64,000 nt of DNA from Nocardia mexicana NBRC 108244 (GTDB lineage: Bacteria > Actinomycetota > Actinomycetes > Mycobacteriales > Mycobacteriaceae): positions 62,001 through 126,000 of the forward strand of contig NZ_BDBV01000035.1 in the NCBI RefSeq assembly GCF_001613165.1, written 5' to 3'. Position numbers and translations under genes: made by a program. Of this stretch, positions 15,911-21,373 are shown one piece after another (position 1 is the stretch's first letter; the number at the start of each line of letters is the position of its first letter). The notes below the pieces were generated by a model. That model was not told the origin of the DNA. It saw only the letters and a list, made by a program, of their open reading frames with translations, and did no database searches.

Positions 15911-17677
15911 TCAGTGGTCGCCCACCAGCCCGAATTCCGTGAGCAGCTCCCCGATTTCGGTGGCGTCCAGCTTCTCGAGCAGCTTGCGTCGCAGGATCTC
16001 CGGGCCGGGGAGCCGCACCTCCTTGCCGTCGCGCAGCCGGCTCGTCGCCGCGAGCAGCTTGCGGATGTCGTAGGTCGAGTTGAAGACCTCCGGCACGCCG
16101 CGCTCGATGCCGAGCAGCCGGTAGGCGGCCTCCATGCCGGTGCGGACGGAGTACTCGGTGGTGAAGATGCAGTCGCGGGTGGTCTCGGCGAACTGGCCGA
16201 TGAAGGCGAAGTTCACCCCGCCCCGGGGCACGATGTCGGGGCGGTCACCGGCCTGGCGCGGCATGAAGAATGCCGTGATGTAGGGCATCATGACCGGCAC
16301 GCACTTGGCGGCGCTCGCGGCGAGCTCGGGGATGTCGGCCTCCGGAACGCCCAGGTGGTACAGCCATTCCTGAGTGATCTCCTCGCCGGTGCACTCCTGC
16401 ATCGGCTTCCGGACGTAGTCCCCGGGCACGTCCACGAACAGCGAGTACACCCACACCACGATCTGATCCTTCGGCTGCTGCTTGAAATGCGGCTGCCGGT
16501 TCACCGTCCAGCTCATCAGCCATTTCGAATCGCGCACCGTCACGATGCCGCCGGTGACGACCTTGCCGCTGAACGGATCTCGCTTGCAGATCTTCTGAAT
16601 GTATTCGGGGATACGCTGATCCAGCGTCGTGACCGTCGCCGATTCCCACTTGGTCTCGGGGATGTGCCCGCCGAACACGTCGGGTCGGCCGAACGCCGGA
16701 TCCTTGGCCGCGATGCGCCGCCACAGATCCCATGCGGGCGCGGGGCCTTCGTTCAACTTCGCGGCGGTGTGGTGGTCACCCTCGTCGGAGTTCTCGGTGA
16801 GCGAGCCGATGGTGGTGAACACCAGATCGTCCGGGCCCAGGTCCACGCCGCCCTCCGCGCCGGTCGAGACCCAATGGATCCTGGTGGCCTGCTTGCGTTC
16901 CGGGGTGATCTCGAAATCGATATCGGTAACGGTGGTGTCGAACTTGAACTTCACGCCCTGGTCGAGCAGCCAGGTGTACAGCGGCAGCACCAGCGATTCG
17001 TACTGGTTGTACTTGGTGAACTTCAGCGCCGTGAAGTCGGGAAGTCCGCCGATGTGGTGGATGAAGCGGTGCAGGTACAGCTTCATCTCCAGCGCGCTGT
17101 GCCACTCCTCGAAGGCGAACATGGTCCGCCAGTACATCCAGAAGTTGCTGTCCAGGAAGTCTTTTCCGAAGACCTCGTTGATGCGCTTGTTCTCCATCTC
17201 CCCGCGGGTGGCGAGGAATACCTTGGTGATGTCCTTCTGCGCCCGGTCGGTCAGGGTGAACAGGCCGTCGGTGTGGGCGTCCTGCCCGCGCTTCACCGTG
17301 GCGCGCTGCAGCGACGAGTTCGGATCGTCCTTGTTGAGCCAATAGAATTCGTCCAGGACGCTGGCGTCGTCGATCTCCAGGGAGGGCACCGAGCGAAACA
17401 GGTCCCACAGGCATTCGAAATGGTTCTCCATCTCGCGGCCGCCGCGAATCACGAAGCCCTTCTTCGGTTCCCGGATCCCGTCCAGCGCACCGCCGGGGAT
17501 CCGCAGCTCCTCCAGGATCGTGATCTTGTTGCCCGGCATCCGCCCGTCGCGGATGAGGAACGCCGCCCCCGACAGCGAGGCGAGACCCGCGCCGACGAAC
17601 CAGGCCGTCTTGTCATCGACCCCCGCGGGCTTGCGGGGGCGGGCGAAGGCCTCGTAATTGCCACTGCTGTAGTACAT
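15911..17677 (-). CDS. ohyA: Oleate hydratase (FAD-dependent)
   Basis: 588 residues from the ATG at 17677, with GAGGGAG just upstream. The FAD-binding G-x-G-x2-S-L motif lies at 29-35, followed by the acidic strand end I-L-E-E at 54-57. R-G-G-R-E-M-E-N-H-F-E (78-88) holds the glutamate used in catalysis by characterised hydratases. Length and conserved blocks (M-Y-W-R-T-M-F-A-F, Q-Y-E-S-L-V-L-P-L) match the MCRA/oleate hydratase family. It adds water to the cis-9 double bond of oleate to give 10-hydroxystearate, usually peripherally at the membrane. The frame stays open upstream through a 32-bp minisatellite into a decayed TetR gene. Confidence 0.93.
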   Translation of the reverse strand: MYYSSGNYEAFARPRKPAGVDDKTAWFVGAGLASLSGAAFLIRDGRMPGNKITILEELRIPGGALDGIREPKKGFVIRGGREMENHFECLWDLFRSVPSLEIDDASVLDEFYWLNKDDPNSSLQRATVKRGQDAHTDGLFTLTDRAQKDITKVFLATRGEMENKRINEVFGKDFLDSNFWMYWRTMFAFEEWHSALEMKLYLHRFIHHIGGLPDFTALKFTKYNQYESLVLPLYTWLLDQGVKFKFDTTVTDIDFEITPERKQATRIHWVSTGAEGGVDLGPDDLVFTTIGSLTENSDEGDHHTAAKLNEGPAPAWDLWRRIAAKDPAFGRPDVFGGHIPETKWESATVTTLDQRIPEYIQKICKRDPFSGKVVTGGIVTVRDSKWLMSWTVNRQPHFKQQPKDQIVVWVYSLFVDVPGDYVRKPMQECTGEEITQEWLYHLGVPEADIPELAASAAKCVPVMMPYITAFFMPRQAGDRPDIVPRGGVNFAFIGQFAETTRDCIFTTEYSVRTGMEAAYRLLGIERGVPEVFNSTYDIRKLLAATSRLRDGKEVRLPGPEILRRKLLEKLDATEIGELLTEFGLVGDH

Positions 17678-17695
17678 GTGCTCCCTCTCTACGTT

Positions 17696-17985
17696 CGGGA
17701 ATACGGGGTGGCTGCGCCTGTGGGGATCGGGAATACGGGGTGCTGCGCCTGTGGTGATCGGGAATACGGGTGGCTGCGCTTGTGGTGATCGGGAATTCGG
17801 GGTGGCTGCGCTTGTGGGGATCGGGAATTCGGGGTGGCTGCGCTTGTGGGGATCGGGAATTCGGGGTGGCTGCGCTTGTGGGGATCGGGAATTCGGGGTG
17901 GCTGCGCTTGTGGGGATCGGGAATTCGGGGTGGCTGCGCCTGTGGGGAACGGGAGTACGGGTGGCTGCGCTTGTGGGGAACGGAT
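17696..17985. repeat. 32-bp minisatellite upstream of oleate hydratase
   Basis: About nine head-to-tail copies are present. The central ones are nearly identical and contain GAATTC at 17793, 17825, 17857, 17889 and 17921, an exact 32-bp period. The outer copies carry GAATAC or GAGTAC variants and small deletions. There is no spacer sequence between units, so it is not a CRISPR. No stop codon interrupts the minus-strand frame that joins it to the hydratase. Confidence 0.85.
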
Positions 17986-18196
17986 CGTCGATCAGCCGTG
18001 ATCTGTGCTCGCGCAGCTCCAGCGCCGCGCGGAAGTCCTCGTTGTAGACCATCGGCAGCAGCTCGACCTTGTAGGCGGCGTAGCGGAACAGCATCACGAC
18101 AGCAACATGTGCGGCCTGGGGATCTCGTGGGTCGAAACCTCGTTCGGCGAAGAGCGCAGCTGCGACGTCCAAGATGCAAGAATGCTTGTCCTGCAT
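17978..18196 (-). pseudogene. Remnant of a TetR-family regulator gene
   Basis: From ATG 18196 the frame starts like a TetR protein (I-L-D-V-A-A-A-L-F-A-E-R-G-F-D). It then jumps straight to a helix-rich segment (V-M-L-F-R-Y-A-A-Y-K-V-E-L-L-P) without the rest of the HTH, and after about 70 residues runs into the 32-bp repeats. A usual TetR protein is about 200 residues with an intact recognition helix. I read this as a gene that lost its DNA-binding core and C-terminal part, with the minisatellite occupying the damaged end. A perfect palindrome remains upstream. Confidence 0.6.
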
Positions 18197-18272
18197 GGTA
18201 TTTTCACGCCGAACGAGGTGGGATGCGCGAGGTGGCGCAGCCATCCGACACCTCCCGCTCTCGATTTGAGAA

Positions 18273-18302
18273 TGAGCGCGCTCACTCAGGAGCGTACTCC
18301 TG
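18273..18302. promoter_or_regulatory. Two adjacent palindromes, old TetR operator
   Basis: TGAGCGCGCTCA (18273-18284) is a perfect 12-bp palindrome. It is followed by CAGGAG-CGTA-CTCCTG (18287-18302). They sit between the TetR remnant and the LOG-family gene, where the operator of the former divergent regulator would be expected. Confidence 0.5.
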
Positions 18303-18331
18303 GTTAACGAATGCGCAACTACAGTGGCCGG

Positions 18332-18871
18332 ATGAATATCTGTGTCTTTCTGTCGGCCGCCGATCTCGACGAGCGCTACACCGGCCCCGCCCGCGAGTTC
18401 GCGGAACTGATCGGCAAGGGCGGGCACACGCTGATCTGGGGCGGCTCGGACGTCGGGCTGATGAAGGTGGTGGCCGACGCGGTGCAGGACAGTCGCGGCC
18501 GGTTGGTGGGGGTGTCCGTGGAATTCCTGGCCAACAAGGCTCGGGCGAACGCCGACGAGATGATCGTCGCGGCCGATCTGGCCGAGCGGAAGGCGCAGTT
18601 GCTGGCCCGGGCCGACGGGGTGGTCGTGATGGTCGGCGGCACGGGAACCCTGGACGAGGCCACCGACATTCTGGAGCTGAAAAAGCATGGGCTGCACCGC
18701 AAGCCGGTCGTTCTGCTGAACACCGCCGGGTTCTACGACGGGCTGCGGCAGCAATTCGAGCGGATGGACGCCGAGGGATTCCTGCCGATTCCCCTGGACG
18801 AGCTGGTGTACTTCGCCGACGACGGTGCCGCGGCAATGGCCTATCTGGAGAGTGTGGTCGGGGTGGAGTGA
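18332..18871 (+). CDS. LOG-family protein (nucleotide phosphoribohydrolase-like)
   Basis: 179 residues from ATG 18332; an in-frame ATG at 18311 adds seven. The Rossmann-like fold carries a glycine-rich V-G-G-T-G-T-L-D-E-A motif, the local form of P-G-G-x-G-T-x-x-E of the LOG/TIGR00730 family. Family members release the base from cytokinin or purine ribotides and were long misannotated as lysine decarboxylases. Replacement of the motif proline by valine, with E kept, leaves activity likely but untested. It is divergent from the TetR remnant. Confidence 0.75.
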   Translation: MNICVFLSAADLDERYTGPAREFAELIGKGGHTLIWGGSDVGLMKVVADAVQDSRGRLVGVSVEFLANKARANADEMIVAADLAERKAQLLARADGVVVMVGGTGTLDEATDILELKKHGLHRKPVVLLNTAGFYDGLRQQFERMDAEGFLPIPLDELVYFADDGAAAMAYLESVVGVE

Positions 18872-19064
18872 ACCGGCCTGCGCGGACATGAATCGACAGC
18901 GCGTGGCAATAGCTGCCGTGACGACTCGATTTGTGACCGCACAGACCGGTCCTGGGCGCTGACTCGGCAGCATCGTGCCCGCAAGCTCGAAAACGCTTGT
19001 GGCAGAACGTGTACGTTACGATGCGGATGTGACCTGACCGTCGCGAGAGCGCCCGGGGTGTCGT

Positions 19065-19703: not shown

Positions 19704-20255
19704 TCACGCCGTCGCGACCGGCTCCCGGTCACTTCGCCGCGTACGGCGCCATACATAGCCCAGGAAGCCGACGAGCCCGACCAGGGGGAGTGCGCTGAGC
19801 GCCCAGCTCAGCGACAGTGGCGGGCCGGGCTGCTCGAGTACTGCGAGGTCGCGCAACTCGCCGACGCCGTGCCCCTGGGGGCCGTCGATCTCGAAGCGGA
19901 AGGTCCAATTGCCTTCCTGGTCGAGGGATCTGACGTCGAGGCCCCAGACCTCGCGCTTGCGGGGATGCCGGGACAGCGGCTCGGGCCGGTAGGTGCGCCC
20001 GTTGGGCTGGGTCTCCACGAGATTGCCGGACTTGCCGTCGATACCACCGTCGGGCAGGAAGGTGAAGTCCAGCGATTGCAGCGCGTGCAGCGGCCATTCG
20101 CTGAAACCGACGGTGATGCCGTAGGGCCCGGCCTGCACGCGTTCGGTGTGTGCGATGTTGACCGGTTCGTACGCGGCGGCGGTACCCGCGGGGATGGTCG
20201 TGAGGCCGAGGACGATGAGCAGCGTGGCGGCCGCGGACAGCGCTCTGGTGATCAC
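19704..20255 (-). CDS. Exported membrane-anchored beta-domain protein, last gene of putative copper-type operon
   Basis: 183 residues from the GTG at 20255, whose GTGA overlaps the stop of the upstream gene by 4 bp. A Sec signal (about 1-28, ending T-A-A-A) is followed by an extracytoplasmic beta-rich domain and one C-terminal membrane helix (about 149-169) with an R-R-T-R-R cytosolic end. Histidines at 36, 57, 97 and 129 are the only obvious metal-ligand candidates. I do not recognise a named family. Context and topology suggest an external domain that works with the polytopic protein encoded just before it. Confidence 0.7.
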   Translation of the reverse strand: MITRALSAAATLLIVLGLTTIPAGTAAAYEPVNIAHTERVQAGPYGITVGFSEWPLHALQSLDFTFLPDGGIDGKSGNLVETQPNGRTYRPEPLSRHPRKREVWGLDVRSLDQEGNWTFRFEIDGPQGHGVGELRDLAVLEQPGPPLSLSWALSALPLVGLVGFLGYVWRRTRRSDREPVATA

Positions 20256-21373
20256 GCGCGTGCTCCTTCCGGTGCGGCGAGGCGCAGCATGGCGCCGAAC
20301 CGCCAACCCAGGAATCCACCGGCGGCGCCGAGCACGCCACCGGCGACGGCGGTGGCAACGATGACGGTCGCGGCGGGCAGGCCCCGGTCGTAGATGAGGA
20401 CGCTCTGCCATGGCGCGCAGACCGCGATGATCAGGCCGCCGAGCCCCCCGGCCAGCGCGGGGACGAGCCGCGAGTCGCTGCCGGTACGCCGCAGCAGCAG
20501 GTCGACCACGACACCGACGGGGAGCAGGCACAGCGGGATCAGGGCCGGGGTGGACGGAATGATCTCGTTGTTCTCACGCATCGGCAGGCCCACCGCATCC
20601 GCGTAGGCCTGCGCGGCCCACGGTGCGAACCACCAGAACACCCCCTGCATCGCCGCCGCGGTAGCGGCCACGATCGTTGCGCCCCAACGCCGGAACCCGG
20701 CCCCGGTCAGCACCAGCATCACGACGATGAAGGCGGTGACCGCGGTGGTCCACCGGACGGTTCCGGTGGACAGCTGCTGAACGGCCAGCGCCGTGATCAC
20801 GCTCGAGGTCACCAGGTGTCCGAGGCAGAGCAGGGCGCCGAGCCATCCCCACAGCTGGTCGCGCGCGGCGGCGAACACGATCACCGTGCCCACCGAGGTG
20901 ACGGTGCTGGACAGGAACAGCCCGATGTGCGGCGGCGAGTCGATCACCGCGTCGAAGCCGTAGAGGGTGTGCCACCACAGATCCCACAGCCCGTACAGCA
21001 GGAACGATGCCGCGCCCAGGCTGGTGACCAGGTAGCCGAGCGGCGCCGTGAAGGTGCGGCCGAAGACGCCGATGCCCGGGCCGCCGAGCGCCGGATCCAC
21101 GGCGTTGCCGCGCCGACCGGCGGAGGTGGTGGCGAGAATGACTGTGAGACCGGTGAATCCGGAGATGGCCGCGCTGGCGTAGATGAACAGGTGCGGCACG
21201 GTGAAGAAGGTGTCGGGGCCGACGTCGCTGTGCCACTGGATATCCCAGGTGGCGCCGACGGCCCAGGTCAAGGCGGCGAGCAACAGGATCGATGCGGGCA
21301 CCCAGGGCCGGACGGCGCCGGTGCGGTCGGCCGTGGTGGCGGCGACGGCCGGTGGTGAGGCGGTCAAATCCAT
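20252..21373 (-). CDS. Polytopic membrane protein with two PmoC-like D-x2-W-H...H motifs
   Basis: 373 residues with about ten hydrophobic helices. Two internally related segments stand out: W43-D44-x2-W47-H48 with P60-H61, and W130-D131-x2-W134-H135 with P148-H149. In the first, spacing is D-x3-H-x12-H. PmoC of particulate methane monooxygenase uses the same spacing (Asp156, His160, His173) for its copper site, and the intervening D-T-x-F-T also matches. The second copy has one extra residue before the last histidine. I infer a metal, probably copper, centre and a distant PmoC/AmoC relationship; catalysis is not shown. It overlaps the downstream gene by 4 bp and follows the FixH/YtkA-like gene after 43 bp. 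Confidence 0.65.
   Translation of the reverse strand: MDLTASPPAVAATTADRTGAVRPWVPASILLLAALTWAVGATWDIQWHSDVGPDTFFTVPHLFIYASAAISGFTGLTVILATTSAGRRGNAVDPALGGPGIGVFGRTFTAPLGYLVTSLGAASFLLYGLWDLWWHTLYGFDAVIDSPPHIGLFLSSTVTSVGTVIVFAAARDQLWGWLGALLCLGHLVTSSVITALAVQQLSTGTVRWTTAVTAFIVVMLVLTGAGFRRWGATIVAATAAAMQGVFWWFAPWAAQAYADAVGLPMRENNEIIPSTPALIPLCLLPVGVVVDLLLRRTGSDSRLVPALAGGLGGLIIAVCAPWQSVLIYDRGLPAATVIVATAVAGGVLGAAGGFLGWRFGAMLRLAAPEGARA

Follow-up and report, generated by a model that had tools for sequence, protein, structure and literature searches.

The aerobic oxidation of methane and of ammonia begins with a step performed by copper membrane monooxygenases (CuMMOs). We know of no explanation for the origin of their membrane copper site. 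In the PmoC subunit, the CuC ligands are Asp156, His160 and His173 and the CuD ligands are Asn227, His231 and His245; the two sites of pMMO are described as neighbours that have not been seen occupied together (PMC12576850). Catalysis in PmoC is attributed to CuD (PMC11194816). In B. subtilis, YtkA/CtaK and YcnJ act in copper import and CuA assembly; YcnJ itself, a CopC-CopD-YtkA chain, serves import, while the assembly of CuA is aided by its YtkA domain (PMC13344008).

Here, we describe P1, a 373-aa membrane protein encoded on the minus strand at 20252..21373 of the window (the whole stretch of 64,000 nucleotides that was analysed), as delineated from its open reading frame, an AlphaFold2 model and homologues. 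Its N-terminal half is PmoC-like and its C-terminal half is predicted to be PmoA-like. In our best reading, P1 represents a new superfamily on a CuMMO core that is somewhat more likely to serve copper capture or delivery than to act as an oxygenase. Neither this superfamily nor a PmoC relative outside the CuMMOs was described among the matches listed in a literature search that had most subscription papers and bioRxiv outside its scope.

P1, its two motif copies and its homologues

Site 1 of P1 spans W43 to H61 (21191..21247, minus strand; W43, D44, W47, H48, P60 and H61) and site 2 spans W130 to H149 (20927..20986, minus strand; W130, D131, W134, H135, P148 and H149), as delineated by alignment, model and hhalign. 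A sequence-only reading of this DNA had placed both motif copies at these residues and had given the first one the spacing of the PmoC ligands Asp156, His160 and His173, and the 373-aa translation bore out both points: D44-x3-H48-x12-H61 (4+13) matches these CuC ligands in spacing (PMC12576850). The second copy had been described as one residue longer. This is true, but it is not a deviation, since D131-x3-H135-x13-H149 (4+14) equals the spacing of CuD; therefore, each copy has a known counterpart among the PmoC sites. The idea of a duplicated site likewise stands in that P1 contains two related units, but this adds nothing beyond PmoC, where CuC and CuD are both present.

We found 52 homologous P1 loci in the GTDB genome collection, in Nocardia, Lentzea, Kibdelosporangium, Amycolatopsis, Crossiella, Actinokineospora, Umezawaea and others. 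The set of 53 P1-type sequences consists of these loci minus L014, plus the window's own locus (L001) and L002; L014 was omitted from the P1-type counts because its gene is split. At that locus, in Nocardia crassostreae (L014:6001-7122), the P1 gene is broken into two open frames. D44, W47, H48, P60, H61, D131, W134, H135, P147 and H149 were invariant in 53/53 P1-type sequences; the tryptophans W43 and W130 were each present in 51 of the 53, and P148 in 52. When 52 P1-type and 29 fused-type sequences (described below) were aligned, the six D/H ligand positions were conserved in 81/81. The invariance of these residues across homologues, which the sequence-only reading had proposed as a check, was thus observed in both sets. 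The window's own genome (8.96 Mb, 180 contigs) contains a single P1 match, and the closest named relatives are from Nocardia wallacei (91%) and N. transvalensis (79%). Identity to the window's P1 is 91% in L005 and 79% in L008, both from genomes labelled Nocardia wallacei, and one of these labels may therefore be wrong.

Longer relatives extend the family into a wider actinobacterial superfamily. Among 251 same-family genomes, four gave a match, namely the window's own, that of the P1-type L002 and those of two longer, distant relatives (L003 and L004). A search of 396 Actinomycetota genomes with the L003 protein gave matches in 41, a count that takes in both L003's own genome and G000 as well as one genome matching in the beta region only; of the 45 matches, 34 sit in open frames 571-1063 residues long. 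With a profile of 15 sequences, 28/246 same-class genomes matched, including two others of the same genus (G022 and G048). The fused-type set comprises 29 of the 30 loci fetched, the remaining one being the query's own, and together with L003, L004 and L096 it forms a set of 32 relatives. The longer fused-type proteins have a beta domain behind the core, as read in L066 and L088; the majority consensus of the 32 extends through this domain. Thirteen columns were invariant in these 32 relatives (D83, H87, G91, R92, H101, D159, W162, H163, G167, D169, W173, P175 and H177), nine of which were aligned by hand to D156, H160, R165, H173, N227, H231, E237, P243 and H245 of PmoC. No further PmoC relatives were found in IMG/VR and phage records.

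A match to the Pfam AmoC profile PF04896, another check proposed beforehand, was found neither for P1 (E ≤ 1) nor for any of the 32 wider relatives (E ≤ 0.1), and in a search of 296 genomes with this profile three matched and the window's own genome did not. PF02461 (AMO) gave no Pfam match to P1; it was silent in the window's own genome (0/1) and equally so in the controls. The Pfam and NCBIfam names obtained for P1, DUF3493 (E 0.019) and ColA_N (E 0.057), were rejected as noise. A PDB sequence search with the P1 profile returned a single match, to an antibody light chain (E 1.4).

Comparison with PmoC and PmoA

Profiles were compared by hhalign with 11 PmoC references, from three actinobacterial genomes, six plasmids and two PDB segments. 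With 81 sequences over residues 20-171, the match reached Prob 79 (pairwise E 1.6e-5, score 40.2) with both triads in register; the score was 13.3 with the reversed template and at best 25.5 among 100 block shuffles and 24.0 among 100 column shuffles. The 81 sequences over residues 20-368 gave Prob 67, fused-type relatives without P1 gave Prob 65.7 over a span that contains site 1 and, of site 2, the Asp and the first His, and 15 diverse sequences gave Prob 24, again with both triads in register. The P1 family alone matched weakly and out of register (Prob 6), and its N-half alone gave Prob 9.3 at site 1 only. The strength of the hhalign match to PmoC varies with alignment depth. At the level of profiles, these comparisons argue for a moderate relation of the superfamily to PmoC, which is weak for the P1 family alone. 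The claim that P1 is a distant PmoC/AmoC relative is supported by the in-register superfamily match, the invariant ligands and the conserved operon, with the qualification that PF04896 is not matched and that the structural match obtained is to PmoA/AmoA.

We also composed a two-site pattern, D-x3-H-x(12-14)-H ... [DN]-x3-H-x2-[WYF]-x2-[DE]-x5-P-x-H, which matched 131/5242 translated segments of at least 120 residues (104 distinct by their first 60 residues). These matches consisted of 122 segments with the family signature and nine PmoC/AmoC/HmoC loci. Dropping the [WYF], [DE] and P positions added eight segments, all of them His-rich frames unlike family members, and shuffled segments (three forward frames) gave no two-site matches. 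Since the pattern was composed from these same sequences, the counts show specificity and not independent discovery.

Like PmoC, AmoC and HmoC (PF04896), P1 has two tandem sites with spacings of 4+13 and 4+14, and it shares with them W-H, D-T and T around site 1 and P-x-H at site 2. It differs in that the second-site Asn is Asp in P1 and in that P1 has no Pfam AmoC match. The CuD ligand Asn227 was replaced by Asp in 81/81 and 32/32 sequences (the sets share 29), and identical chemistry is therefore not supported. We did not file P1 as a CuMMO because the PF04896 profile and the Asn ligand were both looked for and were both absent. Furthermore, Arg165 of PmoC is Pro in P1, whereas Arg is present in 32/32 of the wider set; site 1 lies closer to the N-terminus in P1 (D44 vs. 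D115 in L090); and the inter-site distance is 87 residues in P1 compared to 71-74 in PmoC/AmoC/HmoC.

The two units of P1 resemble each other. Unit 1 (residues 24-88) and unit 2 (residues 108-171) matched with Prob 97 (hhalign, E 9e-11, score 51.5); the reversed control scored 8.6, but a score of 47.2 occurred once among 100 block shuffles, perhaps since 8-column blocks can leave the motif intact. Unit 1 recognized the site-1 unit of PmoC (Prob 91.5, E 8.4e-7) and not its site-2 unit (Prob 0.4). Unit 2 gave Prob 1.5 (46 columns) with the PmoC site-2 unit and 2.0 with the site-1 unit, and therefore does not discriminate the PmoC sites. Between the site-1 and site-2 units of PmoC itself, Prob was 0.5, so the repeat is plain in P1 and hidden in PmoC. 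CuC and CuD may share the duplication origin seen in P1.

An AlphaFold2 model of P1 built from 52 sequences (pLDDT 86.5, pTM 0.87) places the two sites in like settings. At site 1, D-x3-H ends helix 24-50, a loop follows, and the last His is the third residue of helix 59-87; at site 2, D-x3-H ends helix 112-138, and after a loop the last His is the third residue of helix 147-168. In this model both triads would face outwards. Foldseek against the PDB, the structural check suggested by the sequence-only reading, had no hit at E ≤ 0.001, nor any CuMMO chain among its best 50 rows; a structural search of BFVD was likewise empty at this threshold. VIA-align, run on 1000 chains favoured by Foldseek and listed as its best 50 rows, had CuMMO A subunits (PmoA or AmoA) as its top four entries, at Z 11.7 to 13.0 with the next at 8.5, on a scale where helical models without relatives can reach Z 14. 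The four entries were 4phz_B (Z 13.0, 185 residues, 6.1 A), 9cl1_Ca (Z 12.0, 183 residues, 6.2 A), AmoA 9leg_A (Z 11.7, 164 residues, 3.2 A) and 9pxf_D (Z 11.7, 170 residues, 3.4 A). The alignment to AmoA 9leg_A covers model residues 173-365 and delimits the putatively PmoA/AmoA-like C-terminal half (20279..20857, minus strand).

P1 would share with PmoA/AmoA (PF02461) the fold predicted for residues 173-365, and differs in that this half is fused to a PmoC-like half and in that the sequence match is near noise. The hhalign match to PmoA with 81 sequences was slight (Prob 4.9; its score of 24.2 compares with a maximum of 18.8 among 200 shuffles), and none was obtained with P1 alone or fused-type relatives alone. 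This alignment runs through a G-E-F-D-F-like stretch of the fused relatives, which is placed on GDWDFW of PmoA; P1 itself has no counterpart of it. On the basis of the model, the C-terminal half of P1 appears PmoA-like, which suggests a fused C-A core.

The operon and the surroundings of the superfamily

P1 lies in an operon with the gene order P4, P3, P1, P2, in which the P2 start overlaps the P1 stop. P4 (21919..23470, minus strand) has a signal peptide, a beta domain, two TM helices and two further beta domains, as derived from the L006 model and alignment. P3 (21417..21818, minus strand) has a Pfam-defined YtkA/FixH-family domain behind an N-terminal hydrophobic stretch that was recognized by eye. 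P2 (19704..20255, minus strand) has, by alignment, a signal peptide (by eye), a domain and a C-terminal hydrophobic stretch. The sequence-only reading had placed P1 in an operon of exported beta-domain proteins, and this operon is conserved at P1-type loci: P2 was kept in 54/54 and P3 and P4 in 52/54, the two loci without P3 and P4 (L005 and L031) both beginning at a contig end.

P3 matched PF13115 (YtkA) with 44.1 bits (cut-off 25.9) and PF05751 (FixH) with 24.4 bits (cut-off 23), and 51/52 P3 sequences contain the Met-rich motif P-x-M-x2-M-G-H. P2 belongs to no Pfam family; its invariant residues are H36 and R96-H97-P98-R99. A PmoB assignment for P2 was rejected, as the match (Prob 15) rests on the signal peptide and the mature part gave Prob 0.2. 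In P4, residues H272, H284-x-H286-P, H391 and H416-x-H418 (L006 numbers) were invariant in 48 sequences. The P4 model from L006 (pLDDT 82.2) consists of a signal helix, a beta domain (36-132), two TM helices (139-165 and 169-193) and two beta domains (232-329 and 357-476). The first domain of L006 P4 reached 23.7 bits with FixH, just over the cut-off of 23, and the best structural match of P4 domain 1 was CrdA, a copper resistance determinant of Helicobacter pylori (Z 9.9, 96 residues, 2.6 A).

P4 resembles PmoB (PF04744) in its succession of signal peptide, beta domain, two TM helices and beta domain, and differs in having three beta domains, the first of them nearest CrdA, and no profile match. 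A PmoB assignment is not supported for P4 either: hhalign gave Prob 2.0 compared to 0.6 for the reversed template, and the best 50 structural rows, which contained many FN3/Ig-type domains in Foldseek, included no PmoB. PF04744 was silent in the window's own genome (0/1), and the controls were equally silent. An open P4 frame of at least 420 aa was found in 50/52 loci; the exceptions were the window's own locus and L002, where the retrieved sequence stops within P4; L115, from the same genome as L002, shows 517 aa. In the window, P4 shifts its reading frame between about 22293 and 22355 (minus strand), which is either a sequencing error or a real lesion. Upstream of P4 and in the opposite orientation, a histidine kinase gene was present in 21 loci, all outside Nocardia; a gene for a LuxR-type response regulator also lies there, its cluster comprising 30 loci, other copies included. 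Such kinase/LuxR-type pairs occur at L017:2333-4218 (minus strand) and similarly at many loci of Lentzea, Kibdelosporangium and related genera.

In profile comparisons made without L070 and L071, the beta domain of the fused-type relatives matched P3 with Prob 87.9 (E 3.3e-6) and P4 domain 1 with Prob 60.7; by Pfam, FixH matched in only 3/32 and YtkA in 1/32 wider relatives at E ≤ 0.1. Two relatives, L070/L104 and L071/L105, carry a short-chain dehydrogenase domain at the C-terminal end, behind the core (adh_short, E 6.5e-37 in L070:457-3195 and 5e-35 in L071:469-3003, both minus strand). The relative L096, on Streptomyces plasmid pFRL4 (L096:1486-16031), has neighbours annotated as multicopper oxidase, DUF6153, CcsB/ResB, cupredoxin, DUF2933 and DUF305.

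In 22 fused-type stretches, with genes called by a custom codon-position score, the neighbour clusters listed contained no widely shared gene; they comprised the core, its other-strand frames and, mixed into one of these clusters, a MerR-type regulator. MerR-type regulators lie beside or near the fused-type core at L108:4315-5058 (minus strand), L116:3873-4694 (minus strand) and L104:7953-8672 (plus strand). Downstream of the fused-type genes L111:6854-8571 and L117:7201-8891 (both plus strand) are a lipoprotein gene and a gene for a 419-431-aa membrane protein, for which neither Pfam nor NCBIfam gave a match at E ≤ 0.1; the lipoprotein at L117 has weak cupredoxin-like matches.

Candidate functions of P1

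The explanation that we favour, at close to an even chance, is that P1 is a membrane metalloprotein on a CuMMO C (and probably A) core and that its operon module captures, stores or delivers copper. P1 would present two related TM-loop-TM units, each bearing a D-x3-H...H triad, on the same membrane face, and these triads would bind copper. On the outer side of the membrane, P4, P3 and P2 would gather copper and pass it to and from P1, and by analogy with YcnJ the module may capture, store or deliver copper for cuproenzymes. Catalysis at the second site would also be possible, with the Asp ligand being unfavourable. The YtkA/FixH/CrdA-type partners, the Met-rich motif of P3, the fusions of the core to P3-like domains and the pFRL4 neighbours all point to copper, which we infer to be the metal of P1, with zinc as an alternative. 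YcnJ similarly has a membrane metal-site core that works with YtkA-type and other extracellular copper domains (PMC13344008), and differs in its CopC and CopD domains, for which no Pfam match was found in P1-P4 (E ≤ 1) or in P2-P4 of L006 (E ≤ 0.1). It is because of this analogy that copper capture or delivery is ranked ahead of an oxygenase.

That P1 is a working copper oxygenase is a more doubtful but serious alternative. In such an enzyme, the single chain would supply the C-A core, P4 would be a PmoB-like periplasmic partner, and a small or lipid substrate would be oxidised at site 2. Both core triads of pMMO are kept in every aligned sequence, the C-terminal half has a predicted PmoA-like fold, P4 has the beta-TM-TM-beta topology of PmoB, and the core-then-beta order of the fused relatives is the C, A, B order of the hmo operons inspected; in addition, the two dehydrogenase fusions (L070/L104 and L071/L105) suggest an enzyme rather than a carrier. 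However, Asn227, the CuD ligand (PMC11194816), is Asp in every aligned sequence, and P4 lacks both the PmoB profile match (Prob 2.0 vs. 0.6 reversed) and a PmoB among the structural matches listed. The neighbour clusters listed also contained no widespread dehydrogenase group, one being present in 7/52 loci by sequence reading.

It is improbable that the likeness to PmoC is convergent, i.e. that an unrelated membrane protein acquired two D-x3-H/H helix hairpins of its own as metal sites. The absence of a Pfam AmoC match, the weak match of the P1-family profile alone and the absence of PmoC among the structural matches listed would fit such an origin, but P1 and PmoC share positions beyond the ligands (W-H, R-D, P-x-H, an aromatic residue at +3 and D/E at +6), the hhalign score lies well over those of 200 shuffles, the two-site pattern is specific to the P1 superfamily and C subunits, and the other half of P1 independently matches PmoA in structure. 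Least probable of all, and very unlikely in our view, is that the invariant residues bind zinc or are structural in an operon unrelated to copper: the metal identity is itself a deduction and early crystal work on PmoC placed a zinc ion at its site, but the YtkA, FixH and CrdA-type partners, the Met-rich P-x-M-x2-M-G-H of P3 and the copper-type neighbours on pFRL4 argue against it.

If the module handles copper, as we favour, then Nocardia, Amycolatopsis, Lentzea and related genera would have a new system for taking up or delivering this metal. We know of no Actinomycetota carrying the P1 superfamily that live on methane or ammonia. A broader picture, which we put forward only tentatively, is that the superfamily is a single-chain CuMMO relative across Actinomycetota, in which a pmoC-like part is joined to a pmoA-like one and, in many members, to a beta domain behind them; that it is an outgroup to the CuMMOs, in which CuC and CuD would have arisen by duplication of one D-x3-H/H helix hairpin and the catalytic CuD from an Asp-ligated site; and that some members could be new copper oxygenases. 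A superfamily with both sites would supply an outgroup to root CuMMO trees and offer a reason for pMMO having two adjacent sites, CuC and CuD. It would also be a natural comparison of Asp and Asn as second-site ligands, so that the question of the active site could be addressed in non-methanotrophs. If this picture is true, members such as the two with a dehydrogenase domain could form a new class of copper oxygenase.

Elsewhere in the window, a short repeat at about 17680-18030, with a repeating peptide in several frames, lies at the start of the open reading frame 15911-18973 (minus strand).
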